Assembly (NCBI GenBank): GCA_022843945.1
Contig: JALHMR010000021.1
Coordinates: forward strand, 1 to 64,000
Origin: Rhodospirillaceae bacterium
Lineage (GTDB): Bacteria; Pseudomonadota; Alphaproteobacteria; CACIAM-22H2
Length of the DNA stretch: 64,000 nt
Reading direction: 5' to 3'
Position 1 is the first letter of the stretch, and the number at the start of each line of letters is the position of its first letter. The translations under genes were made by a program, and so were the position numbers. Shown here piece after piece: positions 20,878 to 38,555 of the stretch. Below the pieces are notes generated by a model. The model had not been told where the DNA came from, ran no database searches, and was given only the letters and a program-made list of their open reading frames with translations.

Positions 20878-22566
20878 ATGGCCGCTTCGCCGTCGCCGTT
20901 GGTCCAACCGATCCCGCCGCGCAATTCCGTCCCCCACCTTCACCTCGCCGACGACGAGGTGTGCCCTCTCTGCGACCAGCCGATCCCCCATGATCGCTAC
21001 GATGAGATCAAGGCGCGGATCGACGAGCGCGAGCAGGCGCGCGAGTCCGAAATCTCGGCCCGCCTCGGCGAACAGTTCGAGCGCCAGAAGGCCCAGATCG
21101 TCGAGCAGGCGCAACACGACACCCAGGCCGCGCTGGAGCGGGCGGCACAGGAGTCGCAGGAGAAGATCACGGCGGCAGCCGAGGAAGCGCGCAAGCTCGC
21201 CGAGACCACGGCGCAGGAACGGCTCACCGAGGCCCATCGTATTAGCCAAGAAGCGCAAACGGCGCTCCAGACCCAGCTTCAGCAGGCCGAGACCCAGCGC
21301 GGCACGCTCGAAGCCCAGATCGAGACGGTGCGGCGGGAATCGGCATCGGCGATCGAGACCGTCAAGCAAGAGGCGGCAGCGAAGGAAGCGAACATCCGCG
21401 CCGACGCCGCGCGCGCGGCCGACGCGGCCGTGCAAGTCAAACTCGCGTCGTTGGCGAAGGAACGGGAGGACGCGGAAGCGGCGCTCCAGGTGCGCATCGC
21501 GCAGGCCGAAGCCGACAAGACCGCCGCCCAGGACGCGGGCATGGTGCTGCGCGCTCAGCTCGAAGAGGCCGAGCGCGACAAAACCGCCACGATCGAGAAG
21601 ATGCAGCAGGACGCCGTGGCGCGCGAGGCCGAGATCCGCCGCGAGGTTCAGGCAGCCGCTGAAGCGGCAACACAGCAGACGGTGGCCGGGCTGACCCAGG
21701 CCAAGACCGAAGCCGAAGCGAAGGTCGCCGCCGCCGAACAGCAGATGCAGACCTTGCAGGCCGGATTCGACACGCAGCTCGCCGAGCGCCTGCAGGAGCA
21801 GCGCGCGGCGCTGGAGCAGGCGAAGACCGAGGCGGTCAACGCCGAGAAGGCGGCAATCTTCGACGAAAAGCTGAAGCTCTCGAACAAGGTCGAGGAGCTT
21901 CAGCGCGCGCTCGACAAGAAGACCGCCGAAGAGCTCGGCGAGGCGGCCGAACTCGATCTGTTTGAGGCGTTGAAAGCCGAGTACGAGGGAGACCGCATCG
22001 AGCGCGTCAACAAAGGGCTGCCTGGCGCCGATATCCTGCACACCGTCATCCACAACGGCAGGGAGTGCGGGAGGATCATCTACGATTCCAAGAACCACAA
22101 GGCGTGGCGCAACGAGTTCGTTACCAAGCTCGCCGCCGACCAGATGGCGGCTCCGGCCGAGCACGCCGTCTTATCGACGCGCAAGTTCCCGGCCGGCACG
22201 CAGCATCTGCACATCCAGGACGGAGTCATCCTGGCGAGCCCCGCCCGCGTGCTCGCTCTTGTGCAGATCCTCCGCGACCACCTGGTGCAGACGACCAAGC
22301 TGCGCCTCAGCAACGAGGCGCGCACCCAAAAGACGGCGGCGCTCTATAGCTTCATCACGTCCGAACGTTGCAGGAACTTCTTCGCCCAGATCGATAAGCA
22401 GGCGCAGAAGCTTCTCGACTTGCAGCTCAAGGAGCAGAAGACCCATCAGGATGTTTGGAAAAACCAGGGGATCATGCTGCGGTCGATTCAGAAGCTTGGC
22501 GGCGACCTGTCGCGCGAGATCGAGACCATCATTGGCTCTGCGGACGCCCCCGAGGTGACGCCATGA
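20878..22566 (+). CDS. DUF2130 coiled-coil protein (predicted nuclease-like C-terminus)
   Basis: A 562-residue protein. A zinc-knuckle-like C29-P-L-C32 pair is followed by a very long Ala/Glu/Gln-rich coiled coil (about 40-370). The C-terminal DUF2130 domain has RIIYDSKNHKAWRNEF around 395-415, resembling the acidic-Lys core of PD-(D/E)xK-like folds. Its start follows TAGGAGTCTCTGCC. It overlaps the ParB-like gene by 4 bp (ATGA). The coil suggests a scaffold or SMC-like sensor. The function is unknown. Confidence 0.8.
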   Translation: MAASPSPLVQPIPPRNSVPHLHLADDEVCPLCDQPIPHDRYDEIKARIDEREQARESEISARLGEQFERQKAQIVEQAQHDTQAALERAAQESQEKITAAAEEARKLAETTAQERLTEAHRISQEAQTALQTQLQQAETQRGTLEAQIETVRRESASAIETVKQEAAAKEANIRADAARAADAAVQVKLASLAKEREDAEAALQVRIAQAEADKTAAQDAGMVLRAQLEEAERDKTATIEKMQQDAVAREAEIRREVQAAAEAATQQTVAGLTQAKTEAEAKVAAAEQQMQTLQAGFDTQLAERLQEQRAALEQAKTEAVNAEKAAIFDEKLKLSNKVEELQRALDKKTAEELGEAAELDLFEALKAEYEGDRIERVNKGLPGADILHTVIHNGRECGRIIYDSKNHKAWRNEFVTKLAADQMAAPAEHAVLSTRKFPAGTQHLHIQDGVILASPARVLALVQILRDHLVQTTKLRLSNEARTQKTAALYSFITSERCRNFFAQIDKQAQKLLDLQLKEQKTHQDVWKNQGIMLRSIQKLGGDLSREIETIIGSADAPEVTP

Positions 22567-23519
22567 ACAACGTCGCCGTCAATCGCGACCGCGAGAACGT
22601 CGTCAATCTCCAGGAACGGCGCCTCGACCGCACCGTCCTGCGCACCTATCGCACCAGGGCCGACATCGACGACATCGTGCCGAACGACAAGCAGCCGCGC
22701 CTGGGACCGAAGATCGACGAGGAGCTGCAACGGCAGATCGAGGCCAATGGCGGCTTGTTCGAGCCGCTGCTGGTCGAACCGCATCCTGACCTGCCCAAGA
22801 AATACCGGATCATCGACGGCGATCGGCGCTGGACCAATTCCCGCGTGCTGGTGGAGCAGGGCAAGGAGGAGTACCGCCAGATTCCCATCGAGGTCACCGA
22901 TCGCACGTTGTCGGAGGAAGACCGGCTGCGTGTCTGGATCTACATCCATCGACAGCGCAAGGAATGGGATGCCAAGGAAAAGGAGATGGTCGCCTACCGG
23001 CTGGTGGACTTGATGGGACGCGCCAGCGCGGCCAACATCCTCGGCATCACGGTGCGGGAACTGGACAAGCTGGTCGACGTGTTTGAGGTGTCGGAAAAAT
23101 TCACCAGCCTCCGCGACCCTAGCGCGGCCATCACCTGGGCGCGCGAGCTGATGGGCGTGAGCAAGAAGCTGTTGACGCCCAGCGTGGTCGAGGCCGTCGT
23201 CAAGAAGGTCAATCAGAAGCGGATCACCAATTCGAAGGACCTGCGGAAGCTTCGCGCGATCCTTCCTGACCCGGTGGCGCGCAGCCATTTCCTCACCGAC
23301 GCGGGCGATCTAGAATCGTCCATGCTGCGGCTTGCCGTGCCAGAGAAGAAGAGCAAGGGCGGATTGTCCGATGACCTGGAGGCCGTCGTCGACTCGATGA
23401 AGAACGTACCGTGGACGGCGCTTCAGGAGCTCAAGGGCGATCCGGAGATTCTGAAAAAGATCGACGATGCCGAGGCGATGCTGCGGTCGTTGCGGCAAGT
23501 ATTGTCCAATGCGAAATAA
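22563..23519 (+). CDS. ParB-like N-terminal domain protein
   Basis: A 318-residue protein. Residues about 35-125 have the ParB/Srx-like fold signature (LFEPLLVEPHPDLPKKYRII with DGDRRW). The middle is helical and HTH-like (ASAANILGITVRELDKLVD). It is coupled to the DUF2130 gene by ATGA overlap, unlike a normal parA-parB pair. It is distinct from the ParB homolog at 25393. It may be a CTP-dependent clamp or DNA-site reader for the DUF2130 protein. Confidence 0.8.
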   Translation: MNNVAVNRDRENVVNLQERRLDRTVLRTYRTRADIDDIVPNDKQPRLGPKIDEELQRQIEANGGLFEPLLVEPHPDLPKKYRIIDGDRRWTNSRVLVEQGKEEYRQIPIEVTDRTLSEEDRLRVWIYIHRQRKEWDAKEKEMVAYRLVDLMGRASAANILGITVRELDKLVDVFEVSEKFTSLRDPSAAITWARELMGVSKKLLTPSVVEAVVKKVNQKRITNSKDLRKLRAILPDPVARSHFLTDAGDLESSMLRLAVPEKKSKGGLSDDLEAVVDSMKNVPWTALQELKGDPEILKKIDDAEAMLRSLRQVLSNAK

Positions 23520-23714
23520 TCTCCGCCAGAAGACGAGCTGGATACAGTTTTGTCAGGCTCATCCTTTCTAAGCGGGCTCGCGCCTGCGCGTGCCGCGCAT
23601 CGCGCTCTATTCCGCTAGGGCCTAACGGCCCAAGCTCCACCGAGCCCGCTCACGCGGTCTCGGCCCTCCGGGTCACGATCGCTGGCGCTTGCGTCCTGAC
23701 GGACGCCGGCGGCC

Positions 23715-23744
23715 GGCGCGCTCTTCGCGCGCCGCGGTCTTTTT
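23715..23744 (+). terminator. Probable Rho-independent terminator after the ParB-like gene
   Basis: A perfect stem GGCGCGC (23715-23721) and GCGCGCC (23727-23733) with loop TCTTC is followed after six bases by a CTTTTT run (23739-23744). It lies about 200 bp after the stop codon. The spacing of the T-run is slightly long. Confidence 0.5.
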
Positions 23745-23919
23745 CCTGACCCCCGTGCGCAGGGTGGGCGGCGCTCCCGTTTAGGCCCGCCGCGGCGCGC
23801 CGCAACCCTCCGCTTCGCTCCGGGTCCTTCACTTCGTTACGGCCCTTCGGGTGCGCCCCGCCTCGATCGGCGGGCCTGTCCGGTCGCATTTCGCCGCCCA
23901 CCCTGCTTCGGGGGTCAGG
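23745..23919. repeat. Large nested inverted repeat upstream of ardC
   Basis: A left arm at 23745-23773 (CCTGACCCCCG...GGGTGGGCGGCG) is nearly the exact reverse complement of 23892-23919. A nested 10-bp pair AGGCCCGCCG (23783-23792) / CGGCGGGCCT (23868-23877) lies within, plus smaller stems. Together they would fold single-stranded DNA or RNA into one long hairpin ending 35 bp before ardC. No gene is seen from 23520 to 23953. Candidate roles are a single-strand promoter or origin for early expression after transfer, or an attenuator. Confidence 0.7.
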
Positions 23920-23953
23920 CGCGCGAGGTTTTTTGCGAGCGGAGGACCAGCGC

Positions 23954-24898
23954 ATGAGCAATCCCGTCCGGCATCGCGCCAGCGGAGAGTCCCGGCCGAG
24001 CCTCTATCAAGAAGTCACCGACAAGATCGTCCGCGAACTGGAAGCGGGCCGCTTCCCGTGGGTGCAGCCGTGGGGAGCCGCGCGGGCTGGCCTTGGCCTG
24101 CCGCGCAACGCCGCCACCGGGCGGCGCTACGGCGGGGTTAATATCTTGATCTTGTGGGGGGCGGTGATCGAGCGGGGATATCCCGCGCAGCACTGGCTCA
24201 CCTTCCGCCAAGCCCTGACCTTGGGCGGCAACGTCCGCAAGGGCGAGCGCGGCACCACCGTTTGCTACGCCGACCGCTTCATCCCGAAGGCCGAGGCCGA
24301 ACGCGCCGCTAAGGAGGGCGACGAGGCGGCGGCGGTGCCGTTCCTCAAACGCTTCACCGTGTTCAATGTCGCGCAGTGCGAGAACCTGCCCGAGCGGTTC
24401 ACGCATCAGCCCGAGCCGTTGCCCGAGCGCGAGATCATCCCCCACGCCGAGGCCCTGATCGCGGCGACCGGCGCGGATTTCCGCATCGGCGGGGATCGCG
24501 CTTTCTACGTGCCGAGCGCGGACTTCATTCAAGTGCCGCCGCAGCCCGCCTTTGGCGATCAGGTGAATTACTACCGGACGTGCTTCCACGAGTTGGGGCA
24601 CTGGACCGGCCATCCCTCGCGGTTGAACCGCGATCAGTCCGGGCGGCACGGCTCCAATCTCTACGCCCGCGAGGAATTGGTCGCGGAACTGGCGAGCGCC
24701 TTTGTCTGCGCGAGCCAGAGCATCGCGCCCACCGTCCGCCATGCGGATTATCTCGCGTCCTGGCTGGAGGTTCTGCGCGAGGACAACCGCGCGATCTTCC
24801 GCGCCGCCAGCCTCGCCAGTAAGGCCGCCGATTTCATCCTCGCCTTTGGTGAAACCGACGCGAGCGCCGCCCCCGTCGAAACGGAGGCCGCCGCATGA
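23954..24898 (+). CDS. ardC: ArdC-type antirestriction protein (ssDNA-binding metalloprotease)
   Basis: A 314-residue protein with the ArdC N-terminal domain (LYQEVTDKIVRELEAGRFPWVQPW) and a zincin-like C-terminal half with HELGH near residue 212. ArdC proteins bind incoming single-stranded plasmid DNA and protect it from restriction. The ATG at 23954 follows GGAGG by 8 bp, better than the upstream in-frame start. The gene lies behind a large inverted repeat and overlaps the DUF2958 gene by 4 bp. This layout is common in leading regions of alphaproteobacterial plasmids and ICEs. Confidence 0.9.
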   Translation: MSNPVRHRASGESRPSLYQEVTDKIVRELEAGRFPWVQPWGAARAGLGLPRNAATGRRYGGVNILILWGAVIERGYPAQHWLTFRQALTLGGNVRKGERGTTVCYADRFIPKAEAERAAKEGDEAAAVPFLKRFTVFNVAQCENLPERFTHQPEPLPEREIIPHAEALIAATGADFRIGGDRAFYVPSADFIQVPPQPAFGDQVNYYRTCFHELGHWTGHPSRLNRDQSGRHGSNLYAREELVAELASAFVCASQSIAPTVRHADYLASWLEVLREDNRAIFRAASLASKAADFILAFGETDASAAPVETEAAA

Positions 24899-25314
24899 TC
24901 CTCGTCACCGACGACCTCCGCGCGCAATTGCTGCGCAACGGCGAGAACCCCGAGGCCGATCACGCGCCCGTCGTGAAGCTGTTCAATCCCTGCGGTGCGG
25001 CCACATGGCTGCTCACCGAAATGCTGCCGCACGAACCCGACATCTTATATGGGCTGTGCGATCTCGGTTTCGGCTCGCCCGAACTCGGCTACGTGAGGCT
25101 CAGCGAACTCGAAAGCGTTGAAGGCCCGCTTGGGCTTGGCATCGAGCGCGACCTGTATTTCGAGGCGCAAGCCCCGCTCTCGGTCTATGCCGAGGCCGCG
25201 CGGCGCAAGGGCGCGATCACCGAGCGCGAGACGGACTTACGCGAAGCCGCCGCGAGTCTCGGCAAGCGGCTGTTCCCCGATCCCGATCTTCCGCCCCCCG
25301 AGGGGGACGGATGA
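24895..25314 (+). CDS. DUF2958 protein
   Basis: A 139-residue protein matching the DUF2958 pattern: KLFNP with WLLTE near residues 28-42, then YGLCDLGFGSPELGYVRLSEL. The family is typical of plasmids and ICEs next to ardC and parB, with unknown function. It overlaps ardC by 4 bp (ATGA), so it is translationally coupled. It is followed 78 bp later by parB. Confidence 0.9.
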   Translation: MILVTDDLRAQLLRNGENPEADHAPVVKLFNPCGAATWLLTEMLPHEPDILYGLCDLGFGSPELGYVRLSELESVEGPLGLGIERDLYFEAQAPLSVYAEAARRKGAITERETDLREAAASLGKRLFPDPDLPPPEGDG

Positions 25315-25392
25315 CGCGCCAGCCCGGCGCACCCCGGCTCAGTCCGGATCATCGGGCGGGCCGGTTTCCTCTGACGCAAGGAGCAAACGACC

Positions 25393-27123
25393 ATGCAACT
25401 CACCCATATCCCCTTCGCCAAGTTGAGCGTTTCCACGCTCAATATGCGTCACGCCCGCAAGGCCCCGGATATCTCCGATATCCTGCCGAGCATCCGCGCG
25501 CGCGGCATCTTGCAGCCCTTGTTGGTCCGCCCGAGTAGCGGCGGCTACGAGATCGTGGCGGGACGGCGGCGCTATTTCGCGGCCAAGGCCGTGAAGAAGG
25601 AGAAGGGCCGTATCGCGCCTTTGCCCTGCGCCGTCATGGACGATGACGACGACGCGGCGGCCATCGAGGCGTCCCTGATTGAGAACGCCGCGCGCCTCGA
25701 TCCCGACGCCATGACCCAATACGAGACGTTCACGCGTCTTGTGGGCGAAGGCCGCAGCGTGGCGGACATTGCCGCCACCTTCGGCCTCACCGAGACGCAG
25801 GTGAAGCAGCGCCTCGCGCTCGGCGATTTGCTCCCGCAAATCCGCTGCCTCTATCGCGACGAACAGATCGACGCCAGCACGCTCCGCTATCTGACTCTCG
25901 CCACGAAACAGCAGCAACAGGACTGGCTCACCCTGTTCGAGGACGAGGGCAGCCACGCGCCGCGCGGCCACCAGTTGAAGCAATGGCTGTTCGGCGGCGA
26001 GTCCATCCCGGTGTCGGCGGCGCTCTTCCCGTTGGAGGACTATCCCGGCGAGATCGTGTCCGACCTGTTCGGCGACGAGCGGTTCTTTGCCGATACGGAG
26101 GCGTTCTGGGCCAAGCAGAACGAGGCCGTCGCCGCCAAGCGCGATGCCTATCTCGCCAACGGCTGGCGCGCGGTGGAGATCATGGAGCCGGGCCGGCACT
26201 TCTCGTCATGGGAATACGAAAAGACCCCGAAGAAGAAGGGCGGCAAGGTCATTATCGCCGTGTCGCATCGTGGCGAGGTCGAGGCCCACGAAGGCTATCT
26301 GACCCGCAAGGAGGCCAAGCGGGCCGAGCAGGCCGCGCGCGCGGAAGCCAGCGGCGAGGAACCCGAGCCTGAGAAAGCGGCACGGCCCGAGGTCACGCAG
26401 GCGATGCAGAACTACATCGATCTGCACCGCCATGCGGCGGCGCGCGCCGCTTTGGCTGAGCGGCCCGACGTGGCGCACCGGCTCATGCTGGCCCATTTGA
26501 TCGCCGGGTCCGGCCTGTGGTCCGTGAAGCCCGAACGGCAGCAGGCGCGTGGCGAGGCCATCGCCGCCAGCCTCGCTTCCAGCCCGGCGCAGATCGCCTT
26601 CGCCACGAAGCGCGCCGACATGCTGGCGTTGCTCGGCTTGAACGAGGACCGCGCCTATGTCGCGGGCGGGAGCGGGGACGGGTACGCGCTTGCCAGCGTG
26701 TTCGCGCGGCTTCTCGCCCTCTCCGAGGACGAGATCGCGCGCGTCACGGCCTATGTCATGGCCGAAACCTTGGAGGCCGGAACGTCCATCGTGGAGGCGG
26801 TGGGCAACCATCTGGCGGTGGACATGAGCGGCGCATGGACGCCCGACGACACGTTTTTTGACCTGATCCGCGACCGCGAAATCGTCAACGCGCTAGTGGC
26901 CGAGGTCGCGGGCCGGAATGCCGCCAACGCCAATGTGGCCGCCAAGACCAAGCTGCAAAAGCAGATCATTCGCGATTGCCTTGCGGGCACGAACGGGCGT
27001 CAGAAGGTGGAGAATTGGCTACCGCGCTGGCTGGCTTTCCCCGCCAAGCCCTATACCAAGCGCGGCGGCTTCGCCTCTACCGACGCATGGGGCCGGGTGC
27101 GTCGTCTATTTAAAGCCGACTGA
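25393..27123 (+). CDS. parB: ParB/RepB/Spo0J family protein, ICE type
   Basis: A 576-residue protein with the ParB N-terminal domain (IRARGILQPLLVRPSSGGYE, then GRRRY near residue 57) and a helix-turn-helix (SVADIAATFGLTETQVKQRLALG). A long C-terminal half, roughly 250-576, is typical of the large ParB-like proteins in ICEs and broad-host-range plasmids. It likely acts in segregation or regulation of the excised circle. No parA is present beside it. The gene follows ardC and DUF2958 on the same strand and is closed by a terminator at 27141. Confidence 0.88.
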   Translation: MQLTHIPFAKLSVSTLNMRHARKAPDISDILPSIRARGILQPLLVRPSSGGYEIVAGRRRYFAAKAVKKEKGRIAPLPCAVMDDDDDAAAIEASLIENAARLDPDAMTQYETFTRLVGEGRSVADIAATFGLTETQVKQRLALGDLLPQIRCLYRDEQIDASTLRYLTLATKQQQQDWLTLFEDEGSHAPRGHQLKQWLFGGESIPVSAALFPLEDYPGEIVSDLFGDERFFADTEAFWAKQNEAVAAKRDAYLANGWRAVEIMEPGRHFSSWEYEKTPKKKGGKVIIAVSHRGEVEAHEGYLTRKEAKRAEQAARAEASGEEPEPEKAARPEVTQAMQNYIDLHRHAAARAALAERPDVAHRLMLAHLIAGSGLWSVKPERQQARGEAIAASLASSPAQIAFATKRADMLALLGLNEDRAYVAGGSGDGYALASVFARLLALSEDEIARVTAYVMAETLEAGTSIVEAVGNHLAVDMSGAWTPDDTFFDLIRDREIVNALVAEVAGRNAANANVAAKTKLQKQIIRDCLAGTNGRQKVENWLPRWLAFPAKPYTKRGGFASTDAWGRVRRLFKAD

Positions 27124-27713: not shown

Positions 27714-28613
27714 TTAGATCGATTGCACCGTCAACCAACTCCAAATGCGATGCCAGAAACTCCCGTTTTGCGGCGCGGCCTCGTTGACTGCCACGATGCG
27801 CGACATGTGCTTCCGGATATCGAATGTCGGATCGCCGGTCTCGTTCGCCGGATGATGCGGGCACGGCCGATCTGCGAGCGCCGCCATCCGGGCACTCAGG
27901 GAAACTGTTCCGCGATTGCCGTCATATTCGAGATAGACGAACTCGGCGGGTTTGGGAAACCAAGGTGTCAGAATCTGCGCGACCAGTCCGACCGCCGTTG
28001 AGGCCAGCACGCCGTTCGACCAGACAACCTGCGGGCGCGCACCAGCCGCGCCGTACTTCTCGGCTTCTCGCGCCAGCCGTTCGTCCGTGATGAGCCCGCA
28101 ACAACGCAAGCATGGCTTGCCCGGCATCGACAAGATGACTTGGCCGGCGACCAAAAAATGGCGGGGCGCGACTTCATGCACATCCATGCCGATATCGATA
28201 TAGGGTATCAAATGGCGTCGGGCGAAACGTTCAAGTTGGTCGCGCTCCTTGAAGGAGTCGACCGCGCCAACGATGACGTTGCAGCGTCTTAGCGCGTCGA
28301 TGGCGTCATGCCAGCTACCGCGCACGGGATGAATCCGCGCCAGCGGCTGAAGCCCCTTGATGACGCGCTCCGCAATCAGAACTTTGGCCAGCTCCCGCTC
28401 CACATCGGCCAAAGTGCCGCCGATAAGCCTGTTGGTGTTGGTCAGGTCGATATGATCGGGATCGACCGGGACGTACCCACCGATTCCAATATGTGCCGTC
28501 TGCTGCGCTGCGTGGGAGCCGCCGCCGCCAATGCCTACGAGGCCGATGGTTGCGGCCTCGAGGATCGCTTCGCTGTCAGGCCCGAGGAAGCTTTGGCGAG
28601 CAAGCCGTGTCAT
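27714..28613 (-). CDS. E1-like (ThiF/MoeB) activating enzyme of a ubiquitin-like system
   Basis: A 299-residue ThiF-fold adenylyltransferase. The nucleotide loop is GIGGGGSH (27-34), followed by HIDLTNTNR (54-62) as in E1 enzymes. A C168-x-x-C171-C172 cluster and C251-P-H-H suggest a zinc site. It would adenylate the C-terminal glycine of the ubiquitin-like protein. The start overlaps the JAB gene in ATGA. It is the last gene of the four-gene minus-strand operon. The catalytic cysteine is not obvious; C111 and the CxxCC region are the only candidates. Confidence 0.9.
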   Translation of the reverse strand: MTRLARQSFLGPDSEAILEAATIGLVGIGGGGSHAAQQTAHIGIGGYVPVDPDHIDLTNTNRLIGGTLADVERELAKVLIAERVIKGLQPLARIHPVRGSWHDAIDALRRCNVIVGAVDSFKERDQLERFARRHLIPYIDIGMDVHEVAPRHFLVAGQVILSMPGKPCLRCCGLITDERLAREAEKYGAAGARPQVVWSNGVLASTAVGLVAQILTPWFPKPAEFVYLEYDGNRGTVSLSARMAALADRPCPHHPANETGDPTFDIRKHMSRIVAVNEAAPQNGSFWHRIWSWLTVQSI

Positions 28614-29113
28614 GCAGCGCTCCAATGGCGCGTTGGCATACCGACTTCTGTGAATTCGGTGATCGGAAGGTATGCCCGTCTCCGCTCGACCCACATCTGG
28701 CCGCGAGCGGAATCGCTGCTGAGCACGATCGCGCCGTGCGGCATCTGCGGTGCGACCTTGAAGAAGTCGGGTATGAACTTCGCGTTCTCGCGGATGTCGA
28801 CCCCGCTGAACTGTGGAAAACCGCGACCTCCGTGGGAGTGTACGTGGAAGAGCGCGATGCCCGCCTGCATCGCCCATTGCAGCGCGCCACGGATCGCGTT
28901 CGGCCCCATCATCGCGCCGACCGAGGGATCGCGCAGGTAGTCTTGGTCTGCGACCGGCCGATAATCGCGGGCGAGGACGAGCAGATCGTCGCCGTCGGCG
29001 GAGAGGCCGGCCGAGATGAAGCCGACGCGCTCATGCGCGAACGGATGCCGACGATGCAGGTCTTGTCTCACCGTAGCCGCCAGCGCCACCGTGATCTTGA
29101 AATGCACTTTCAT
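28610..29113 (-). CDS. JAB/MPN-domain metallopeptidase (deubiquitinase-like)
   Basis: A 167-residue JAMM protease. An N-terminal glutamate (E28 in ERVGFISAG) is followed by H92-S-H94-x8-S103-x-x-D106, the zinc-binding JAMM motif. In bacterial ubiquitin-like operons it trims the precursor tail and can remove conjugates. The ubiquitin-like protein here ends GGSS, so removal of two residues would expose GG. It overlaps both the E2 and the E1 genes by 4 bp. Confidence 0.92.
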   Translation of the reverse strand: MKVHFKITVALAATVRQDLHRRHPFAHERVGFISAGLSADGDDLLVLARDYRPVADQDYLRDPSVGAMMGPNAIRGALQWAMQAGIALFHVHSHGGRGFPQFSGVDIRENAKFIPDFFKVAPQMPHGAIVLSSDSARGQMWVERRRAYLPITEFTEVGMPTRHWSAA

Positions 29114-29439
29114 GCGACGGCCCGCAGATGGGCGCAGAGCATGGCGGTCCAGCTCAGCGTGGCCGCGACATCCTTCCAGGACGGTGCCCACCAAGACTTT
29201 CCCGCGACATAGTGCTGCGCCCAATTGTTGCCGCGTCCCCCAATCTGGCGCTCGAAGAACAGCCGGGTCGCATAGCCGCTATGGGCCTGCGGCACGAGGA
29301 GCAGGTTCATGGTCTCGTCGCGTCCCGCTGCTTTGAATCTGAACTCCGGCAGCAGCACGGCAGGCTGGCCGCCCTCTTGGAGGAGGACGGCCTTGTCATG
29401 CAGCGCCTGCATGCGCTGCATTTCTGTTGCCGCATCCAT
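29110..29439 (-). CDS. E2-like protein of the ubiquitin-like system (Prok-E2 family E type)
   Basis: A 109-residue protein between the multi-ubiquitin and JAB genes. It is assigned as E2-like by position and by the LPEFRF, HSGYATRLFF and WAQHY pattern (H53, W73, H76). The start at 29439 overlaps the upstream stop (TGATG); an in-frame ATG at 29457 is the alternative. Its only cysteine is C102, seven residues from the end, so the usual mid-domain catalytic cysteine is absent or relocated. It is therefore either a non-canonical conjugating enzyme or an adaptor. Confidence 0.75.
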   Translation of the reverse strand: MDAATEMQRMQALHDKAVLLQEGGQPAVLLPEFRFKAAGRDETMNLLLVPQAHSGYATRLFFERQIGGRGNNWAQHYVAGKSWWAPSWKDVAATLSWTAMLCAHLRAVA

Positions 29440-30170
29440 CAGGACGATCCCCCGCACGGGACCTGGCTGAAGAACTTCATTCCATCCTTCACTCGCAACT
29501 TCGCATTGGGCTTCAGCAGCTCCAACTGGCCCTCAGCGTTGACCAGGTTGAGGAGGTAGCCCGGTTCGACGCCCAGCACTTCGATCAATTGTTCCGTGGA
29601 GTAGACGCCCGCCGGGATCTTCTTCTCGGCGCCATCGATGCAGACCGTGACGAGGCGCTTGCGGGTCCGCAGCCGTTCCGTCCCGGCGTCGCTCAACTTG
29701 ACGCGATCATCCGGGCCGAGGACCCGATCTTCCGCGTCCTCACGCTCCAGCACCAGAACATGGTCCTCATCGACATCCGCGACTTCGCGCAACGTTGGCT
29801 CGTTGATCGTCGGCGCTCCCCATTCGTAGCCGCGGCCATCCACCGTGAAGCGGAAGAGGCGGTCGCTCTTGAAGGCTCGGAACGCCTCGATGCCGGGCTT
29901 ACGGAGATCGACCGCCTCATCGAGGCCGATGGACCGCGTGCCGCGCCGGACGAGCTGGATCAAGACATGCTCGTCTGCCGGCACGAATCCGGCTTCCGTC
30001 AGAATCTGCCGGCCGTCCGGCACCGGGTCCTGGAACATCACCCGCGTATCGTTCACCACGGCGGCAAACGCGCCGCTGTCACCGCGCTCGGCGGCAGGTT
30101 CGGAGGCGGCGCTGCCCATCCGGTCCTCGGTGAGGGCGCCGCTCACGGCGCTGTCGTCATCGGTCCTCAT
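29439..30170 (-). CDS. Triple ubiquitin-like (multiubiquitin) protein
   Basis: A 243-residue protein: a charged N-terminal tail (1-34) followed by three tandem ubiquitin-like domains, at about 35-100, 104-170 and 172-236. Repeats two and three each begin with a strand of the F/V-T-V-x-I/V-D-G type and end in a hydrophobic strand. The C-terminus is C239-G-G-S-S243, so GG is masked by two residues that the JAB peptidase could remove. The start follows GAGG by 8 bp on the minus strand. It is the first gene of the operon and the probable modifier or storage polyprotein. Confidence 0.88.
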   Translation of the reverse strand: MRTDDDSAVSGALTEDRMGSAASEPAAERGDSGAFAAVVNDTRVMFQDPVPDGRQILTEAGFVPADEHVLIQLVRRGTRSIGLDEAVDLRKPGIEAFRAFKSDRLFRFTVDGRGYEWGAPTINEPTLREVADVDEDHVLVLEREDAEDRVLGPDDRVKLSDAGTERLRTRKRLVTVCIDGAEKKIPAGVYSTEQLIEVLGVEPGYLLNLVNAEGQLELLKPNAKLRVKDGMKFFSQVPCGGSS

Positions 30171-30225: not shown

Positions 30226-30300
30226 TAATTAACAGGGCGCGCTTGATAAATCAAGCAAACTCTATGCGCGCTTGATATTCGAAGCAAGACGGCGTAGAAA
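30226..30300. promoter_or_regulatory. Divergent promoters with two XRE-type operators
   Basis: The minus-strand promoter towards the ubiquitin-like operon has TTGATT (30254-30249), 17 bp, TAATTA (30231-30226). The plus-strand promoter towards the XRE gene has TTGATA (30272-30277), 17 bp, TAGAAA (30295-30300). Dyads GCTTGATAAATCAAGC (30241-30256) and GCTTGATATTCGAAGC (30270-30285) cover the two -35 boxes and lie 29 bp apart. A repressor bound here would control both directions. Confidence 0.7.
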
Positions 30301-30339: not shown

Positions 30340-30732
30340 ATGCCGACACCTACCGAGAGGAGTTCCGTGAAAGTTACGTTGGGTCAGTATCTCGCGTCGA
30401 TTCGTGCCGATCGCCGCCTGTCGCTACGCCAGGTCGAGGAAGCCACTAACAGGGAAGTCTCAAACGCCTATCTCAGCCAAATCGAAAACGACCGGATTCA
30501 GCAGCCGTCGCCTCACATTCTCCACGCCTTGGCGGAGCTCTATAAGGCCGACTACGAACGCCTGATGGAGATGGCGGGTTATATCGCGCCGAACAAGGCG
30601 CGCGCAGCCGATCAGCGTCATGGCCGTGTCGCCACGTTCGCCGAGCACAATCTGACCTCGGAAGAGGAGGCGGAATTGATGGAGTACCTCCAATTCATTC
30701 GCAGCAGGAAACGCCCGAATGACAAAGGCTGA
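30340..30732 (+). CDS. XRE-family transcriptional repressor
   Basis: A 130-residue protein with an N-terminal XRE helix-turn-helix (LGQYLASIRADRRLSLRQVE, then SNAYLSQIENDRIQQPS). The start ATG follows GGGAGG by 8 bp. It overlaps the ImmA/IrrE gene by 14 bp, forming the classical repressor-antirepressor protease pair, and is divergent from the ubiquitin-like operon. The two dyads at 30241-30285 are the likely operators. It probably represses itself and the operon until cleaved or displaced. Confidence 0.9.
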   Translation: MPTPTERSSVKVTLGQYLASIRADRRLSLRQVEEATNREVSNAYLSQIENDRIQQPSPHILHALAELYKADYERLMEMAGYIAPNKARAADQRHGRVATFAEHNLTSEEEAELMEYLQFIRSRKRPNDKG

Positions 30733-31660
30733 CGACAGCAGTCTCGATCCCGACCAGCGCCGCGCGGTCGAGGAGCGGGCGAAACAGCTCCTTGACCGCG
30801 CCGCCGCCTGGGGTCGATTTCCGACTCCCATCGAAGACATTCTTGGTGCTGCGCAAGTGGTCGTCGCCCCGACCAGCGCGTTCGATCCGGTCCAGATCAT
30901 GGCCTATCTGCGCCGCAAGGCGGCGGATGCGGCCGCGACGCTCAAATCCGCTATCTCGAAAGTCTTTGGCATCTGTGACGCGGAAGAACATGTCATCCAT
31001 ATCGACGACACGGTTTCCGAATCGAAGCAGACCTTCCTCAAGCTGCACGAAACCGGACATCATGAGCTGCCGACCCACCGCAAGCTCTTTCGGTTCTTCC
31101 AGGACTGCGAGAAGACCTTGGCACCGGAAATCTCCGACCTATTCGAGCGCGAGGCCAATAATTTCGCCCGCTTCGCCCTTTTCCAGGGCGGCAAGTTCGG
31201 CGAGGTCGCTGCCGACTACGATATGGAGATCAAGACGCCGATGAAGCTCGCCAAGAAGTTCGGCGCCTCAATCTACGCCGCCTGCCGCGAGTTTGCGCGA
31301 ACGCATCACCGAGCCTGCGTCGTCTATGTTCTGGAACCGATCCAGTATGCGCCCGGCGCCGGCGCCCAAGCGGCGGTACGCCGGATCGAACCGTCCATAT
31401 CTTACGAGGCGCAGTTCGGCTCCCCGATCGATACCGTCATCACGCTGGATCACCCGTTGGGCCGCCTCCTTCCCATTGGGCGGCGCATGACGCGGCCGAC
31501 CACGCTGTCGATCAAGGATCGCAATGGCGTTGCCCATGAATGCGTCGCGGAAGCCTTCGACACGACGTTTAATGTCGTCATCCTTCTTTATCCCGTGAAG
31601 GCATTGACAGCTTCTACCGTGATCCTGCCCGCCGGGTTTCAGGTGCGCCCGGCCTTGTAG
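30719..31660 (+). CDS. ImmA/IrrE-type metallopeptidase
   Basis: A 313-residue protein with the zinc motif HETGH at about residues 110-114 and the downstream REANNFARF segment (the third ligand region) seen in ImmA/IrrE proteases. The C-terminal 120 residues are extra. In ICEBs1 the ImmA protease cleaves the ImmR repressor on stress. Overlap with the XRE gene suggests the same partnership here, with the ubiquitin-like operon as one output. The regulatory role is inferred. Confidence 0.9.
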   Translation: MTKADDSSLDPDQRRAVEERAKQLLDRAAAWGRFPTPIEDILGAAQVVVAPTSAFDPVQIMAYLRRKAADAAATLKSAISKVFGICDAEEHVIHIDDTVSESKQTFLKLHETGHHELPTHRKLFRFFQDCEKTLAPEISDLFEREANNFARFALFQGGKFGEVAADYDMEIKTPMKLAKKFGASIYAACREFARTHHRACVVYVLEPIQYAPGAGAQAAVRRIEPSISYEAQFGSPIDTVITLDHPLGRLLPIGRRMTRPTTLSIKDRNGVAHECVAEAFDTTFNVVILLYPVKALTASTVILPAGFQVRPAL

Positions 31661-31718: not shown

Positions 31719-32660
31719 ATGCTGGAAGCCACGCCAGAAGAAACCGACCAGATTGTTAGCTACATGGCGTCGCAGGCGCCCGATCTGACCGTCGAGTTTC
31801 TGCAGAAAGTCTATTCCGAAAACGTCCTCGACCATCGCCATGACGTGTGGGACGTGCATACCAATGTCGATCGCTGGTGGGTCATCACGAACCCCACCAA
31901 CCTCTATTCCCAAGCGCAGTTCCCGAACATGGATCTCGCCCTCACCTTCCATGTGGGCCTCTGCCTGCGCATCCCGCGCAGCGAAAAGCCGAAGCTGGGC
32001 GATTTACCGGTCGAACCGTTCATGCAGTGCTTCCGCTATCTTTCCGAAGCGTCCGACGCCCTGTCGCATGCCCAAGAGGTTGCGGACTATCAGGCCATCG
32101 GAGTGCGTTGCCGGGAGTCACTGCTCGCTTTCATCGACGCCGCGCAGAAAGTTGTTCCCTGGACCGCTGCTGATCCGCCCAAACGAGCCGATTTCAAAGC
32201 ATGGGTTGATCATGTTTGCGGGACCGTCCTCTCCGGCCCGTCACAAAAGGATCGCCGCCAGCTCTTCAAGACGTTGCTCGACAGCGCCTGGGGCTTCTCG
32301 AATTGGCTGACCCATACGAAAAGCTCGAAATGGCACGACGCGGAAGCCGCGACATCCACGACCGAACACGCCGTTTCGCTCTGCATCTCTGCTGTCATTC
32401 AACATATTCGCGGCGTTCCCGAAGCCTGTCCCGCTTGCGGATCGCATCGGTTGTCGCCTCAGCGCGCGGTCGATCCACAAAGCCCCGAGATCGAATGGGA
32501 GAGGCCGGCCTGCATGAAGTGCGATTGGGTCGGCACGCCGGTCCGTATCAACCGGGTACCGGGCATGTTGTCCGCGACGGATTCGCCGCCGCCCGAGGGC
32601 GAGTGCATTGTTCCGACGGTCCCGCTCCGGCAATTGGACAGACCCGGACAACCGAAGTAA
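31719..32660 (+). CDS. Hypothetical protein with C-terminal zinc ribbon
   Basis: A 313-residue protein with helical N-terminal 220 residues of no recognised family. A C-terminal zinc ribbon has CPACGSHRL and CMKCDWVG (about residues 232-270), followed by a proline-rich tail. It is downstream of the XRE-ImmA pair and probably in the same transcript. It converges with the HNH-type gene, 6 bp apart. The function is unknown; membership of the ubiquitin-like module is possible but unproven. Confidence 0.7.
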   Translation: MLEATPEETDQIVSYMASQAPDLTVEFLQKVYSENVLDHRHDVWDVHTNVDRWWVITNPTNLYSQAQFPNMDLALTFHVGLCLRIPRSEKPKLGDLPVEPFMQCFRYLSEASDALSHAQEVADYQAIGVRCRESLLAFIDAAQKVVPWTAADPPKRADFKAWVDHVCGTVLSGPSQKDRRQLFKTLLDSAWGFSNWLTHTKSSKWHDAEAATSTTEHAVSLCISAVIQHIRGVPEACPACGSHRLSPQRAVDPQSPEIEWERPACMKCDWVGTPVRINRVPGMLSATDSPPPEGECIVPTVPLRQLDRPGQPK

Positions 32661-32666
32661 CGGCGG

Positions 32667-33770
32667 CTACGCCAGCTTTCTGTAGGCGTCCGCAAGCTCC
32701 GCGGCATGATCGAGCTGAAGTTGGCGATATGCCGTATCGCCCGCGCCGGGCTCCTTCGGGTCAACCCATTCATATCTCAGCGCGTTAAACAGCCGGATCT
32801 GAATGTCGTAGATGCTCGCCGCGATATCCTTCTGCATTGCGCAGTCGCCGCCCACCACCGCGTCGAACTCGATCGACGCGGAAGGGTCGGCGATCACCTC
32901 GACCCGATCCATAAACTGACGAAACAACGCCCCTTGGCGGCTCTGTCCCTGCAATGTCCGCTCATACAGACGCGAATCGAAAGCATTGGTGTGACCATAG
33001 AACCCGCCCTTGAAAGACGGGTCATCGGAAGGCAGCCTGATCGGCTGATAAAGCCACACGACCGGCTTGAAGAGCTTCAGATCGGTGACCGGATTGCTGA
33101 TCTCGGCGGCGTATCCGATGCCGTCGAGTTTCAGCATCCCGCTGTTTTCGCCGCCCATCAAAAGCGTCATCGATTGCGGATGCGGCATGCCGCAGCCTCG
33201 TGAACAGAAGAAATCAGCCGATACGTTCAGGAGCAGAATGTCGTTGATGCGGCAGCCGAAGCAACTCGGCATGTCGTTGAAGATGAGACTGTCGCCGCCC
33301 AACAGGTTGATGCCCTTGTTGTCGCTGTCGAAGACATATACCGCCAGCATCCGGTCTTTCTGTGCGACACGGGTGGATATGTGGAAGTGCGGCGTGATCG
33401 CGACGGGATGATTTTCGATCATATGGCGCGTCAGCCAAACGCCGATCCGCACTTTATCAAGCCAATCCAGAAGCGCCACGTAGGCAGACGCTGGCAAGGT
33501 TTCGCGCCGCTGCAACGCTGCCACATAGGTCTTAATTTGCGCTTCAAGCGCCGCATATTTGTTATTGCATCCGTCGCAGGCTGGGGCGACGAAATTCGAC
33601 CAGGAATATCGGATGGGCGCTTTGTCTTTCTTGAAGTTCTGGCCGAAAGTCACCACGCGAAGCGGATCGCCGGTCATTTCAAGAAGCCAATAGGGGATTA
33701 CATGCTCTCGCGTTTTGTCGTTCGGAGCGCAGCCGCAGAAGATGCAGAGCCTATTTTCGGATAGAGACAT
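32667..33770 (-). CDS. HNH-endonuclease-like protein
   Basis: A 367-residue protein. The N-terminus has CIFCG, REHVIPYWLL and APACDGCNNKY, the CxxC..H..CxxCNN arrangement of HNH nucleases with structural zinc. The rest is unassigned and cysteine-containing (CSRGCG). An upstream in-frame GTG at 33782 is an alternative start. It faces the zinc-ribbon gene. It may be a nuclease effector of the neighbouring module or a stand-alone defence gene. Confidence 0.75.
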   Translation of the reverse strand: MSLSENRLCIFCGCAPNDKTREHVIPYWLLEMTGDPLRVVTFGQNFKKDKAPIRYSWSNFVAPACDGCNNKYAALEAQIKTYVAALQRRETLPASAYVALLDWLDKVRIGVWLTRHMIENHPVAITPHFHISTRVAQKDRMLAVYVFDSDNKGINLLGGDSLIFNDMPSCFGCRINDILLLNVSADFFCSRGCGMPHPQSMTLLMGGENSGMLKLDGIGYAAEISNPVTDLKLFKPVVWLYQPIRLPSDDPSFKGGFYGHTNAFDSRLYERTLQGQSRQGALFRQFMDRVEVIADPSASIEFDAVVGGDCAMQKDIAASIYDIQIRLFNALRYEWVDPKEPGAGDTAYRQLQLDHAAELADAYRKLA

Positions 33771-34407
33771 TTCTAGTTCCACAGCCGACGTTACAAACTA
33801 GCATGATCGCAAAGCGAGGCACGAGCGCCCTGCTGCCGACGCTCCAATTTGCCTGCCGGTCACACAGCTATCGTCGATCACCTCGTCATTCTCGTGCCCA
33901 ACGCCACGACTTCGCTTTGGCACCAGCACGGCCAGTTGCAGCGCTTGAAGCGCTCCGTTGCGATTTCCGGAAGTTTCGCCCAGCCAAATCCAGCCGCAGG
34001 CGCACGAACGCCCTGTTGACGCGGAAGGGAAGGGGGCGGCGGCTCCTGGCGATAGGGGTGCCGCTATCGCACATGACTCGGCTTTCGCGTCTTTTCGGCT
34101 CCGGGCGCGTCTTGATGACGACAGGGGCAGACATGCTTCTCCATCTCCGTCGCAGGACCAGTCCCTGCTCTTTGGCGATGACCTATGGGCGTCGTCGTCC
34201 CCTGGTGAAACCGTCGCGTCAGACTTTTTTCCCCTGCGCCTGCGGCGCATTCCTCGCGGACGCTGCGCTCCAAAAAAGTCCTCCGCTCAGGTCCTTCGCT
34301 GCGCTGCGGCCCCTCCATTTCATTCCGGGGTTCACGGGTCCGAGCGCGCCCATGAACGGTCCGCCATCGCAGGGGATGGTCCCCGCGACAGATTAGGAGA
34401 TCGAATC
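33771..34407. other. Long gene-free region before the transfer genes
   Basis: About 640 bp without a supported gene; open frames here are arginine-rich and lack start signals. It contains an inverted repeat GACTTTTTT (34222-34230) / AAAAAAGTC (34272-34280). A 23-bp segment at 34290-34312 matches 19 of 23 bases of 23823-23845 inside the ardC-upstream repeat. It ends with AGGAG before the DUF736 start. A regulatory or replication-related role is suspected. Confidence 0.5.
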
Positions 34408-34777: not shown

Positions 34778-34920
34778 CTGTGCTCGCAGCAAGAGCGGTC
34801 GAATTTACGACGACTCGCCTGCGACTCTGCCGCACTTGCGCTCAATTTGCCTTTATCGCGCTCAGGGGGCGGCGAAGTTTGCTGTCGCCGCTTGCCTTCA
34901 GAAAACTGGAGGTCATGCTC

Positions 34921-35148
34921 ATGAGCGAACAATCGAAGCGGGCCAACAACGGTAAGACAGAAAGCCCGTTCCTCAACACCCGGCAAGCAGGCGACTACGT
35001 GAAGTTGTCGCCGCGCACGCTCGAGAAAAAGCGCGTCACAGGCGACGGCCCGCGCTTTCGCAAGCACGGACGATACGTGTTCTATCATATCGACGCACTC
35101 GATGCGTGGTCGCGAGAACGTGAACAGGCATCCACCTCGGGTGTTTGA
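34921..35148 (+). CDS. rdfS: AlpA/RdfS-like excisionase (recombination directionality factor)
   Basis: A 75-residue winged-helix protein of the MerR/AlpA excisionase type (LNTRQAGDYVKLSPRTLEKK and GPRFRKHGRYVFYHIDALDAW). GGAGGT ends 7 bp before the ATG at 34921. An earlier ATG at 34915 is too close to it. It overlaps traF, the same order as rdfS-traF in the Mesorhizobium symbiosis ICE. There RdfS switches the integrase from integration to excision, activated by FseA. The assignment rests on family and gene order. Confidence 0.82.
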   Translation: MSEQSKRANNGKTESPFLNTRQAGDYVKLSPRTLEKKRVTGDGPRFRKHGRYVFYHIDALDAWSREREQASTSGV

Positions 35149-35665
35149 CCCTACGCGCGCTTCACCGTACCGGCGCTCGGTCCTTACGCTCGCATCACTC
35201 GCGCTCGGGCTGATCGGGCTCGCGATGCTCGCCGATCCCGCGCCGCGCCTGGTCTGGAATGCCTCAGCCAGCGCGCCACGCGGACTCTATCTGATAACGC
35301 CAACCGTCGCGGTCGCACGCGGCGACCTGGTGCTCGCCATGCTGCCGGACGCGTCGCGCCGCTTCGCGGCGGCGCGCGGCTACCTGCCTGATGGCGTGCC
35401 GATCCTCAAGCGGATCGCCGCCACGGCAGGTTCGGAGATTTGCACGGACGGTTATGCGATCACCGTCGCGGGGCGCACGCTTTCCCGCCTCGCGACGGAT
35501 CGGGCCGCGCGTCCGCTGCCGCTATGGCAGGGCTGCCGTGCGCTGGTTCTGAATGAAGTCTTCCTCCTGATGACCGACGTTCCGGACTCCTTCGACAGCC
35601 GCTATTTCGGGCCGGTTTCCACCACGCAAATCATTGGAAAGGCGACCCCGCTGTGGACCGAATGA
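35102..35665 (+). CDS. traF: TraF-type signal peptidase (S26 family) for pilin processing
   Basis: A 187-residue inner-membrane protein. An N-terminal membrane segment (LTLASLALGLIGLAML) is followed by the S26 serine motif SASAPRGLY near residue 57 and the lysine motif VPILKRIAATAG near 102. TraF matures the TrbC pilin. The ATG at 35102 overlaps rdfS by 47 bp; a later GTG at 35120 could be used. It overlaps the lytic transglycosylase by 4 bp. Confidence 0.88.
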   Translation: MRGRENVNRHPPRVFDPTRASPYRRSVLTLASLALGLIGLAMLADPAPRLVWNASASAPRGLYLITPTVAVARGDLVLAMLPDASRRFAAARGYLPDGVPILKRIAATAGSEICTDGYAITVAGRTLSRLATDRAARPLPLWQGCRALVLNEVFLLMTDVPDSFDSRYFGPVSTTQIIGKATPLWTE

Positions 35666-36339
35666 GCGCAGGTCTTGTGGCGATGGTTGCAGCGTTGCTC
35701 GCGACCACATCGCTGCGAGCGCAAGAGCCGATAGCGTCTCTCGACCGCTGGAGCCCGATCATCGCCGAAGCCGCCGCCCGGTTCGGCGTTCCCGTGCGCT
35801 GGATACGCGACGTGATGGCAGTGGAAAGCGGCGGCCGGACTGTGCTCGGCGGCCAGCCGATCACGTCGCCAAAGGGCGCGATGGGCCTCATGCAACTGAT
35901 GCCCGAGACCTATGCGGAGATGCGCCGCGCGCACGATCTCGGGGCTGATCCTTACGCGCCGCGCGACAATATCTTCGCCGGTGCCGCTTATCTCAGGACC
36001 ATGCACGACCGCTTCGGCTGGCCAGGTTTGTTCGCCGCCTACAACGCCGGCCCGACACGCTATGAAGACTATCTGCGGAGCGGCCGTACCCTTCCCGAGG
36101 AGACGATTTCATATCTGGCGGCGCTCGATTCCGGCGGCGAGAACGCGGCATCGACCGCCCAAGCGAGCATAGCGAAAGTCAATTCCGTACCGGTGGCAGC
36201 ACCGAATGTTGTCTCCGGACGGTCGATATTCTTCGTCCGGAACGGCGTGCGGATCGCGTCGATTTCGTCGGCGCGTACCGCCTCAATCGATCATCGCGCT
36301 GCGCCGATCTTCGTGCCGTTAAGCGGCCGGCGGCCATAG
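35662..36339 (+). CDS. Lytic transglycosylase (VirB1/TrbN type)
   Basis: A 225-residue exported muramidase. The signal peptide is MSAGLVAMVAALLATTSLRAQ. The SLT domain has catalytic Glu in AVESGG near residue 55, GLMQLMPETY and AAYNAGP. It opens peptidoglycan for assembly of the mating channel. The ATG overlaps the traF stop (ATGA); an in-frame GTG 9 bp upstream is less likely. The C-terminal 70 residues are unstructured. Confidence 0.88.
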   Translation: MSAGLVAMVAALLATTSLRAQEPIASLDRWSPIIAEAAARFGVPVRWIRDVMAVESGGRTVLGGQPITSPKGAMGLMQLMPETYAEMRRAHDLGADPYAPRDNIFAGAAYLRTMHDRFGWPGLFAAYNAGPTRYEDYLRSGRTLPEETISYLAALDSGGENAASTAQASIAKVNSVPVAAPNVVSGRSIFFVRNGVRIASISSARTASIDHRAAPIFVPLSGRRP

Positions 36340-36569
36340 CCCCATCCAAAGAGAGCGTAGATGAGTGCGGGTGAGAGTATGACCGGAGCGAAAATGCGGC
36401 GAAGGCAAGATGAAACAGTGGCGCCATGTCTGCGCATGTCGTTGTCTGCACATCTTTTTCATAGCGCCATGCCCTGCGGGCACGGCGCCATGCGCCGGCA
36501 AGCCGTTGAAACTACTCGCGCGCGATGGCGCCGATTTTCAGGGCGCATCGACGTGCCTATCTCGATGCC
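36340..36569. other. oriT: Candidate origin of transfer upstream of the relaxase
   Basis: A 230-bp gap without a supported gene. It carries a strong hairpin GCGCCATGCCC (36464-36474) / GGGCACGGCGC (36478-36488), one mismatch, and repeated GCGCCATG words (36421-36428, 36464-36471, 36485-36492). The position directly before the relaxase gene matches where oriT lies in related ICEs. The nick site cannot be read directly. Confidence 0.45.
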
Positions 36570-38555
36570 ATGACACCTGACGACGATTTCAAGCCGAGGC
36601 TGGGCAAAGTTCGGTCGCTCGGCGGAAAGAAGGGGCGCCGCTATCTCCAGCGCGTTCTTCATGCCGTCGCCCTGGCCGGCAGCCGCGGACGGTTCGGGCA
36701 GGCGCGGCGCGCGCAATTCCATGGCAACCGGATCGGGCGTGGCTCCGGTGTGGGCCGGGTCCTCGCCTCGCGTGACCGCTACGCCGCTTATCGGCAACGC
36801 CGCGTTATCATCAAATCCAGGATCGTTAAGCTCGCCGGCAAGGGGATGAAGGCGGCGCAGGCGCATCTACGCTACATCCAGCGCGACGGAGTGACCCGCG
36901 ATGGACAGCCTGGCGCACTTTACGATGCCGATCGCGATCGGACGGACGGCAAGGCATTCCTCGAGCGGGCCGAAGGCGACCGGCATCAGTTTCGGTTCAT
37001 CGTCTCGGCCGAGGACGGTGCGCAGTACGACGATCTCAAGCCTTTCGTCCGGCGTCTCATGCGGACGATGGAAGAGGATTTAGGGACGAAGCTGGAATGG
37101 GTTGCCGTCGATCACCACAACACCGGCCATCCGCATACCCACATTGTCGTCCGCGGCCGGGACGATCGCGGCACGGATCTAATCATTGCGCGAGAATACC
37201 TGACGATCGGCATGCGCGAGCGCGCCGCCGAAATCGTCGCCTTCGATCTTGGTCCGCGCTCGGATTTCGAAATCGAGAACCGGTTACGGAGCGAGGTGGA
37301 GCAGGAGCGTTTCACCAGCCTCGACCGGCGGCTGATCCAGGAGGCGGATTCGGAACGGCTGATTTCGGCCGGACATCGCGAAGCCTTCCAGCAAAGTTTG
37401 CGGGCAGGGCGCCTGCAGAAGCTGGGGCGTCTCGGCCTGGCTCAGGAGACTGTCCCCGGAGTCTGGCGACTGTCGGCCGAGCTGGAGCCGGTGCTGCGGC
37501 GCATGGGGGAGCGCGGCGACATCATCAAGACCATGCACCGCGAGATGGCCGAGAAAGGCATCGCCCGCGCGCCATCGGATTACGTGATCTACGATCCGGC
37601 GGCGGCCGAGGCCCGGCCGATCATCGGCAAAATCATCGCGCGCGGGCTGTCGGACGAACACGCCGACCGGCATTTCGTGATCGTCGATGGTATCGATGGC
37701 TACAGCCACTACGTCGATATCGGCAAAGGCGAGGCGACCGATCCGATTCCGGACGGCCGCATCGTGGAGGTCACGCCAAAACTGATCGAGGCGCGCGCGG
37801 TGGACCGGACCGTGGCCGAGATCGCAGCACTGCATGACGGCCGCTACAGCATCGATATCCATCTCCAACATGACCCGTCCGCGCGCCACGTCTTCGCCGA
37901 GACCCATGTCCGGCGGCTTGAAGCCATGCGCCGCCTCGCCGGGATCGTGGAGCGAGAGCCGGACGGAAGCTGGATCATCGCGTCCGATCATGTCGAGCGG
38001 GCGGCGTCCTTCGAGCGTATGCAGGGACAGGCCGCGCCTGTGACGATCCGGACGCTTTCGGCATTGGGGCTCGACCGGCAGGTGGGCGCGGATGGCGCGA
38101 CGTGGCTCGACCGGGAGCTGGTATCCACCGCTCCGGCGTCGCTCCGGGACAGCGGATTCGGGCGGGAGGTCCGCGAGGCGCTGGTGCAACGGCGCCAATG
38201 GCTGGTTGCCCGGAGCTTCGCCCAGGAGAACCAGGACCAGGTTATCTATCGCTCCGATATGCTGATCGAGCTACGCCGGCGCGAATTGTCACGGGTGGCT
38301 GGGCAGCTTTCAGGCGAGCTCGGGCTGAACTACGTCGAGACGCGAAGTGGTGATCGGGTCGAAGGTCTTTATCGCCGGCATATCGATCTCGCGAGCGGGC
38401 GGTTCGCGGTGATCGAGAAGACTCGCGAGTTCACGCTTGTCCCGTGGCGGCCTGCCTTGGAACGCGGGCTTGGCAAACAGGTCTCGGGCTTCGCGCGCGG
38501 AGAGACCATTTCCTGGAGCTGGGGACGCCAGCGGAGCGGACCGAATATCGGCTAG
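36570..38555 (+). CDS. rlxS: MOB relaxase, VirD2-like with DUF3363 (RlxS type)
   Basis: A 661-residue relaxase. The HUH metal motif HPHTH has histidines at residues 187, 189 and 191, followed by IVVRGRDD. A candidate catalytic tyrosine is in HLRYIQRDG near residue 108. The C-terminal DUF3363 region runs from about 250 to 661. It nicks oriT and pilots the strand through TraG and the Trb channel. The ATG at 36570 is chosen for its typical MTPDDDFKPRLGKVR start; an in-frame ATG at 36525 exists. It ends 1 bp before a convergent minus-strand gene. Confidence 0.88.
   Translation: MTPDDDFKPRLGKVRSLGGKKGRRYLQRVLHAVALAGSRGRFGQARRAQFHGNRIGRGSGVGRVLASRDRYAAYRQRRVIIKSRIVKLAGKGMKAAQAHLRYIQRDGVTRDGQPGALYDADRDRTDGKAFLERAEGDRHQFRFIVSAEDGAQYDDLKPFVRRLMRTMEEDLGTKLEWVAVDHHNTGHPHTHIVVRGRDDRGTDLIIAREYLTIGMRERAAEIVAFDLGPRSDFEIENRLRSEVEQERFTSLDRRLIQEADSERLISAGHREAFQQSLRAGRLQKLGRLGLAQETVPGVWRLSAELEPVLRRMGERGDIIKTMHREMAEKGIARAPSDYVIYDPAAAEARPIIGKIIARGLSDEHADRHFVIVDGIDGYSHYVDIGKGEATDPIPDGRIVEVTPKLIEARAVDRTVAEIAALHDGRYSIDIHLQHDPSARHVFAETHVRRLEAMRRLAGIVEREPDGSWIIASDHVERAASFERMQGQAAPVTIRTLSALGLDRQVGADGATWLDRELVSTAPASLRDSGFGREVREALVQRRQWLVARSFAQENQDQVIYRSDMLIELRRRELSRVAGQLSGELGLNYVETRSGDRVEGLYRRHIDLASGRFAVIEKTREFTLVPWRPALERGLGKQVSGFARGETISWSWGRQRSGPNIG

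Follow-up and report, generated by a model that had tools for sequence, protein, structure and literature searches.

The window, a 64,000-nucleotide stretch of Rhodospirillaceae bacterium DNA, contains what we judge, with slightly better than even confidence, to be a Bub-like conjugation operon under CapH/CapP control, in which a ubiquitin-like protein (Ubl) would be trimmed at Gly240, adenylated, held as an ester on Ser87 of an E2-like protein and transferred to lysine. Four overlapping genes run on the minus strand from 30170 to 27714 in the order Ubl–E2–JAB–E1. The first (29439..30170) encodes a multiubiquitin protein of 243 amino acids that matches PF14452 (E=2.8e-30) and has three Multi_ubiq (beta-grasp) stretches and one C-terminal tail. 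Its stop codon overlaps, as TGATG, the ATG of the gene for the E2-like (BubB-like) protein of 109 amino acids (29110..29439, minus strand), which is followed by genes for a JAB/JAMM peptidase of 167 amino acids (28610..29113, minus strand) and an E1-like adenylyltransferase of the ThiF family of 299 amino acids (27714..28613, minus strand; PF00899, E=2.3e-23). Pfam detects the Ubl and the E1 of the window and gave no match for its E2 and JAB. We assigned the E2-like protein by homologue alignment, conservation, AlphaFold and a PDB fold match, and the JAB by residues E28, H92, H94, S103 and D106.

A search with the E2 retrieved 10 plasmid records and 27 genome loci besides the window; among viral contigs it gave no relative. 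The order Ubl-E2-JAB-E1 is kept in the 27 further genome loci and in most plasmid matches, the Spirosoma record, whose stretch stops shortly past the E2, showing only Ubl and E2. Since this order is kept among loci whose E2 identity falls to 28-40%, the operon is not a chance arrangement. In the window and in the homologous loci alike, JAB and E1 are separate, overlapping genes. A divergent relative in locus L053 (4627-4980) has a Ubl frame of about 118 amino acids ending KGGSS, with E2-JAB-E1 otherwise complete. The JAB frame of locus L023 (5176-5817) and the JAB and Ubl frames of L050 (4171-4974 and 5215-5800) seem to be broken in two, as a frameshift or a sequencing error would leave them. 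Genes for a PD-(D/E)XK nuclease and a UvrD-helicase adjoin the operon in L023 (6850-10300) and L025 (6993-10315).

Whether the second protein is an E2 at all had been left by the sequence-only reading to structural prediction, and the prediction, once run, supports an E2 (UBC) fold. From 26 natural sequences AlphaFold produced a model with pLDDT 91.9 and pTM 0.85; from the single E2 sequence the model was poor (pLDDT 60). Secondary structure and fold matches give the architecture as a helix, a four-stranded sheet, an active-site loop and a helix. The best solved fold match is Citrobacter BubB (9eae_C, Z 9.9), with 106 residues aligned at an rmsd of 3.2 and 8% identity. TSG101 UEV structures come second (Z 7.2 and about 7), in a range below 8 where, as the comparison tool warns, a match may reflect merely a common arrangement. 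With the remaining matches at Z 4.6-7.2, only that to BubB stands clear. Foldseek gave a TM of 0.72 for the model against BubB, but an E of 0.34. PDB sequence searches with the E2 alone or with a 9-row profile found no E2, so the link to BubB rests on fold comparison. None of 26 family members matched Prok-E2_E (PF14462) at E<=1; hhalign gave 55% probability (E 1.2e-4) against a 16-sequence Prok-E2_E profile and 2% against a 4-sequence one.

The canonical E2 catalytic cysteine sits in the loop after the sheet, and among 31 non-redundant homologues we found no conserved cysteine; an E2 without a central cysteine had been recognized from the sequence and is borne out by the family. The same reading had suggested that the catalytic cysteine might have moved to Cys102 (codon 29136-29134). 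This residue is the sole cysteine of the window E2, but it is present in 2 of the 31 homologues and replaced by Ala, Gly, Leu, Ser, Thr, Ile or Tyr in the other 29; conservation thus refutes it as a mechanism of the family, and we rejected Cys102 as the nucleophile. Ser87 (codon 29181-29179), on the other hand, is the only Ser, Thr, Cys or Lys of the E2 that is invariant among the 31 homologues. Its codon is TCN in 36 of 36 loci, so that serine codon switching says nothing here about purifying selection. By the secondary structure of the model, Ser87 comes right behind the last strand, some ten residues ahead of the final helix, which we take to be the place where E2s carry the catalytic cysteine. 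A global profile alignment sets GKSWWAPS over GRSWQRWS, so that Ser87 falls on the serine that classical Bub E2s have in WQRWSRH.

The main rival to an ester on Ser87 sees the E2-like protein as a UEV/RWD-like scaffold without catalysis of its own, which would bring E1, Ubl and target into contact, with the target lysine attacking the Ubl-adenylate on the E1 directly. We consider this possible but doubtful. It would fit an E2 without a conserved cysteine that, after BubB, resembles the inactive TSG101 UEVs most closely in fold, and it is close to the 'inactive' E2 folds of Iyer et al. 2006 (PMC1779556), who class the E2s of type 6e operons as inactive E2/RWD. However, ordinary scaffolds do not need an invariant nucleophile at the active-site loop, and the window family and the classical Bub E2s alike have an invariant Ser there. 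Ser87 itself may be structural rather than catalytic.

The E1 bears on the same question. Its adenylation residues are invariant in 32 E1s, and so are four of its cysteines and no others, C111, C168, C171 and C251. This invariance is what would favor a thioester after all, formed on C111 or on a zinc-site cysteine of the E1. We regard such a thioester as quite improbable: C168, C171 and C251 appear to form a zinc site together with H253, and C111 immediately precedes the nucleotide-binding strand, at a position that is Ala in an Enterobacter Bub E1. Downstream of the CxxC, residues 173-250 contain no cysteine column among the 32 homologues; this is presumably the region in which related MoeB/UBA5-type E1s carry their catalytic cysteine. 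Since neither E1 nor E2 has a conserved catalytic cysteine, an ordinary thioester relay is unlikely, and we favor an ester on Ser87. Ubiquitin chemistry ordinarily proceeds through a chain of cysteine thioesters; a family that retains Ubl, E1, E2 and peptidase but lacks a conserved catalytic cysteine in both enzymes offers a simple case for ester chemistry and for the origin of ubiquitin relays. The best solved relative of the E1 is Citrobacter BubCD (4e-19), ahead of TcdA, ThiF, MoeB and UBA5.

The Ubl of the window ends in VPCGGSS, with CGGSS at residues 239-243 (codons 29456-29442). The window translations confirm this C-G-G-S-S end as it had first been read, as well as the residue numbers C102, H92, H94 and D106. 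The tail had been taken for a masked Gly-Gly, from which two residues would be removed. Aligned over 36 loci, it reads G-x-S-S throughout, except for G-S-S-A in Spirosoma, and position -3, just after the tail Gly, may be G, Q, H, A or S. We therefore rejected Gly-Gly as a conserved processing signal. Among non-redundant Ubls, Gly240 and Ser242 never vary, and Ser243 hardly does. Other Bub Ubls have comparable ends: the Citrobacter BubA construct in the PDB ends DVNNG, and BubB begins at the next residue; the Synechocystis protein ends TTTEG, with a single Gly; further ones have TTEG, NPG or NNG, followed by an extension that varies or by a fused E2. Since the solved BubA ends at a single Gly, the mature end of the window Ubl is predicted to be Gly240 (codon 29453-29451), and from this comparison it is probably a single glycine rather than the visible Gly-Gly. 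Activation of the Gly would still require trimming, as had been proposed, with three residues predicted to be lost instead of two, and the fixed G-x-S-S would mark the processing site. The idea that three tandem Ubl domains could be attached through one Gly-Gly stands insofar as the three share one C-terminus, but the Gly-Gly itself is not conserved. PDB relatives of the window Ubl are 9cd2, 9d59 and 8u38.

A JAMM peptidase had been posited on the basis of H92, H94 and D106, and it is indeed encoded, with E28 and S103 in addition; this JAMM metal and catalytic set is near-invariant in 32 non-redundant JAB homologues. Similarity to known JABs is marginal at the sequence level. Prok-JAB was weakly matched by 4 of 22 members of the JAB family, and the only PDB match, to BubCD, was weak (E 0.33).

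Tails that are cut off ubiquitin-like precursors tend not to be conserved, and the fixed Ser-Ser could thus be a sign that the tail has a use and stays on. In one rival reading the Ubl is never conjugated: it would work as an oligomer or filament that keeps its G-x-S-S end, under regulation by JAB and E1. In keeping with this, the tail Ser-Ser is conserved as strongly as the Gly, there are solved structures of multi-Ubl proteins in free form, and oligomerisation appears in the title of Gong 2025, as cited in PMC13373217. Yet nearly all loci pair the Ubl with an E1 and with a JAMM peptidase whose motifs are complete, and the relatives end at a single Gly; an unconjugated Ubl is in our view improbable. 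If the tail is removed, as we prefer to think, the conservation of x-S-S is unusual and may reflect recognition by the JAB. We also considered whether the tail is conserved only through the ribosome site of the E2 or the start overlap. This is unlikely, since the Ser-Ser is kept in loci that differ in how the two genes overlap and that have no G-rich site.

In the mechanism that we propose, the JAB would cut the precursor of three Ubl domains behind Gly240, the invariant residue, so that x-S-S is lost, and the E1 would adenylate Gly240. Ubl-AMP would then pass straight to Ser87 of the E2, at the usual place of the cysteine, to give a Ubl~Ser ester. From there the Ubl would move to a target lysine, so that the three-domain protein is attached as one unit, and the JAB could reverse the attachment. 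Expression of the operon would be released when DNA damage activates CapP and this peptidase cleaves CapH.

The putative regulators lie divergent from the Ubl operon. A CapH-like HTH repressor (30340..30732, plus strand; HTH_31 1.3e-11, PADLOC capH 2.9e-5) is followed by a CapP-like IrrE metallopeptidase (30719..31660, plus strand; PADLOC capP 6e-13, Peptidase_M78 1.6e-6) with a HETGH (HExxH) motif. In 24 of 36 loci a CapH/CapP-like pair lies upstream in divergent orientation, and of 544 Bub operons in PMC13373217 (2026), 219 have CapW or CapH plus CapP. Between capH and the Ubl gene of the window are two operator-like elements, the 16-nt palindrome GCTTGATAAATCAAGC (30241-30256) and, 29 nt apart, a copy with 82% identity, GCTTGATATTCGAAGC (30270-30285). 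Judged from their sequence and place, the two are likely repressor operators. Related CTTGAT/CAAGC palindromes precede the Ubl gene in L021, L031, L032, L033 and L035. Beside capP, two proteins (31719-32660, plus strand, and 32667-33782, minus strand) have no confident family match, and one of them is weakly HNH-like.

Genes for ParB-like, ArdC anti-restriction, S26 peptidase, transglycosylase and DUF3363 relaxase proteins occupy 20878-27123 and 34780-38555 of the window. With these genes on its flanks, the operon looks as if it sits in a conjugative element. In 10 of the 10 closest relatives, IetA (an AAA ATPase) and IetS (an S8 peptidase, or subtilase) are encoded directly after the E1, on the same strand and within about 200 bases. 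This IetAS pair lies downstream of the E1 in L021 (7872-11251) and L022 (7897-11264), and also in L029-L035 and L037. These ten loci form the sister clade of the window copy, and the pair stays adjacent there even where IetA identity drops to 63%. A tree built from the concatenated proteins joins the window copy to this clade with full support, but outside it. The window copy has no IetAS beside it, and its genome gave no IetA match other than an FtsH-like one. In 23 further IetA loci of the class, none of the four operon genes was present in the roughly 1.5 kb retrieved on either side. The coupling to this anti-phage system is thus conserved but specific to one clade, where it would link protein tagging with a defence pair of ATPase and protease. 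A bolder and improbable reading is that in this branch the cysteine-free cascade, by way of the Ser87 ester to lysine, hands tagged proteins over to IetA and IetS, as a bacterial tag-and-degrade module analogous to ubiquitin-proteasome; the window copy would then have lost the protease arm or never have acquired it.

The nearest known systems are those of Bub. Bil E2s are catalytic cysteine enzymes. The Bil operon (Chambers 2024, Hor 2024) has a Ubl, an E1, an E2 and a JAMM peptidase, as in the window, and the window Ubl is distantly related to a multi-Ubl chain in the PDB that is named Methylobacterium Ubl-BilA (8u38). Unlike Bil, however, the window has an E2 without a conserved cysteine, and both its E2 and its E1 lie nearer to those of Bub. 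TSG101-type UEVs share with the window protein an E2 fold minus the catalytic cysteine (Z about 7), but they are eukaryotic peptide or ubiquitin binders without an operon-encoded E1.

Operons of such a kind form row or type 6e of Iyer et al. 2006 (PMC1779556), and PMC13373217 states that phage protection by Bub operons is yet to be demonstrated. The window operon has in common with Bub/type 6e a PF14452 multi-Ubl, a cysteine-less E2 fold encoded between the Ubl and the JAB/E1, a JAMM peptidase and a ThiF-type E1. Citrobacter BubABCD (PDB 9ea4, 9ea5, 9ea8, 9eae and 9eav) provides the best solved relatives of its E2 and E1, and the CapH/CapP regulators of the window family and the predicted single-Gly mature end are likewise Bub-like. 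In Bub/type 6e, in contrast, the JAB is fused to the E1, whereas here they are separate genes, and a DUF6527 or metal-binding accessory gene, a feature of type 6e, is absent from the 36 loci and from the window's genome. These two departures led us to call the operon a Bub-like variant and not a plain member. It also differs from classical Bub in that its E2 escapes Prok-E2_E and is without the R-H of WSRH, its Ubl family has the three-residue extension in G-x-S-S, and its JAB is barely recognised by Pfam. Ye 2026 (NSMB) reportedly describes a serine-ester intermediate in Bub. If so, the ester chemistry proposed here for the window family would already be known for its parent family, Bub.
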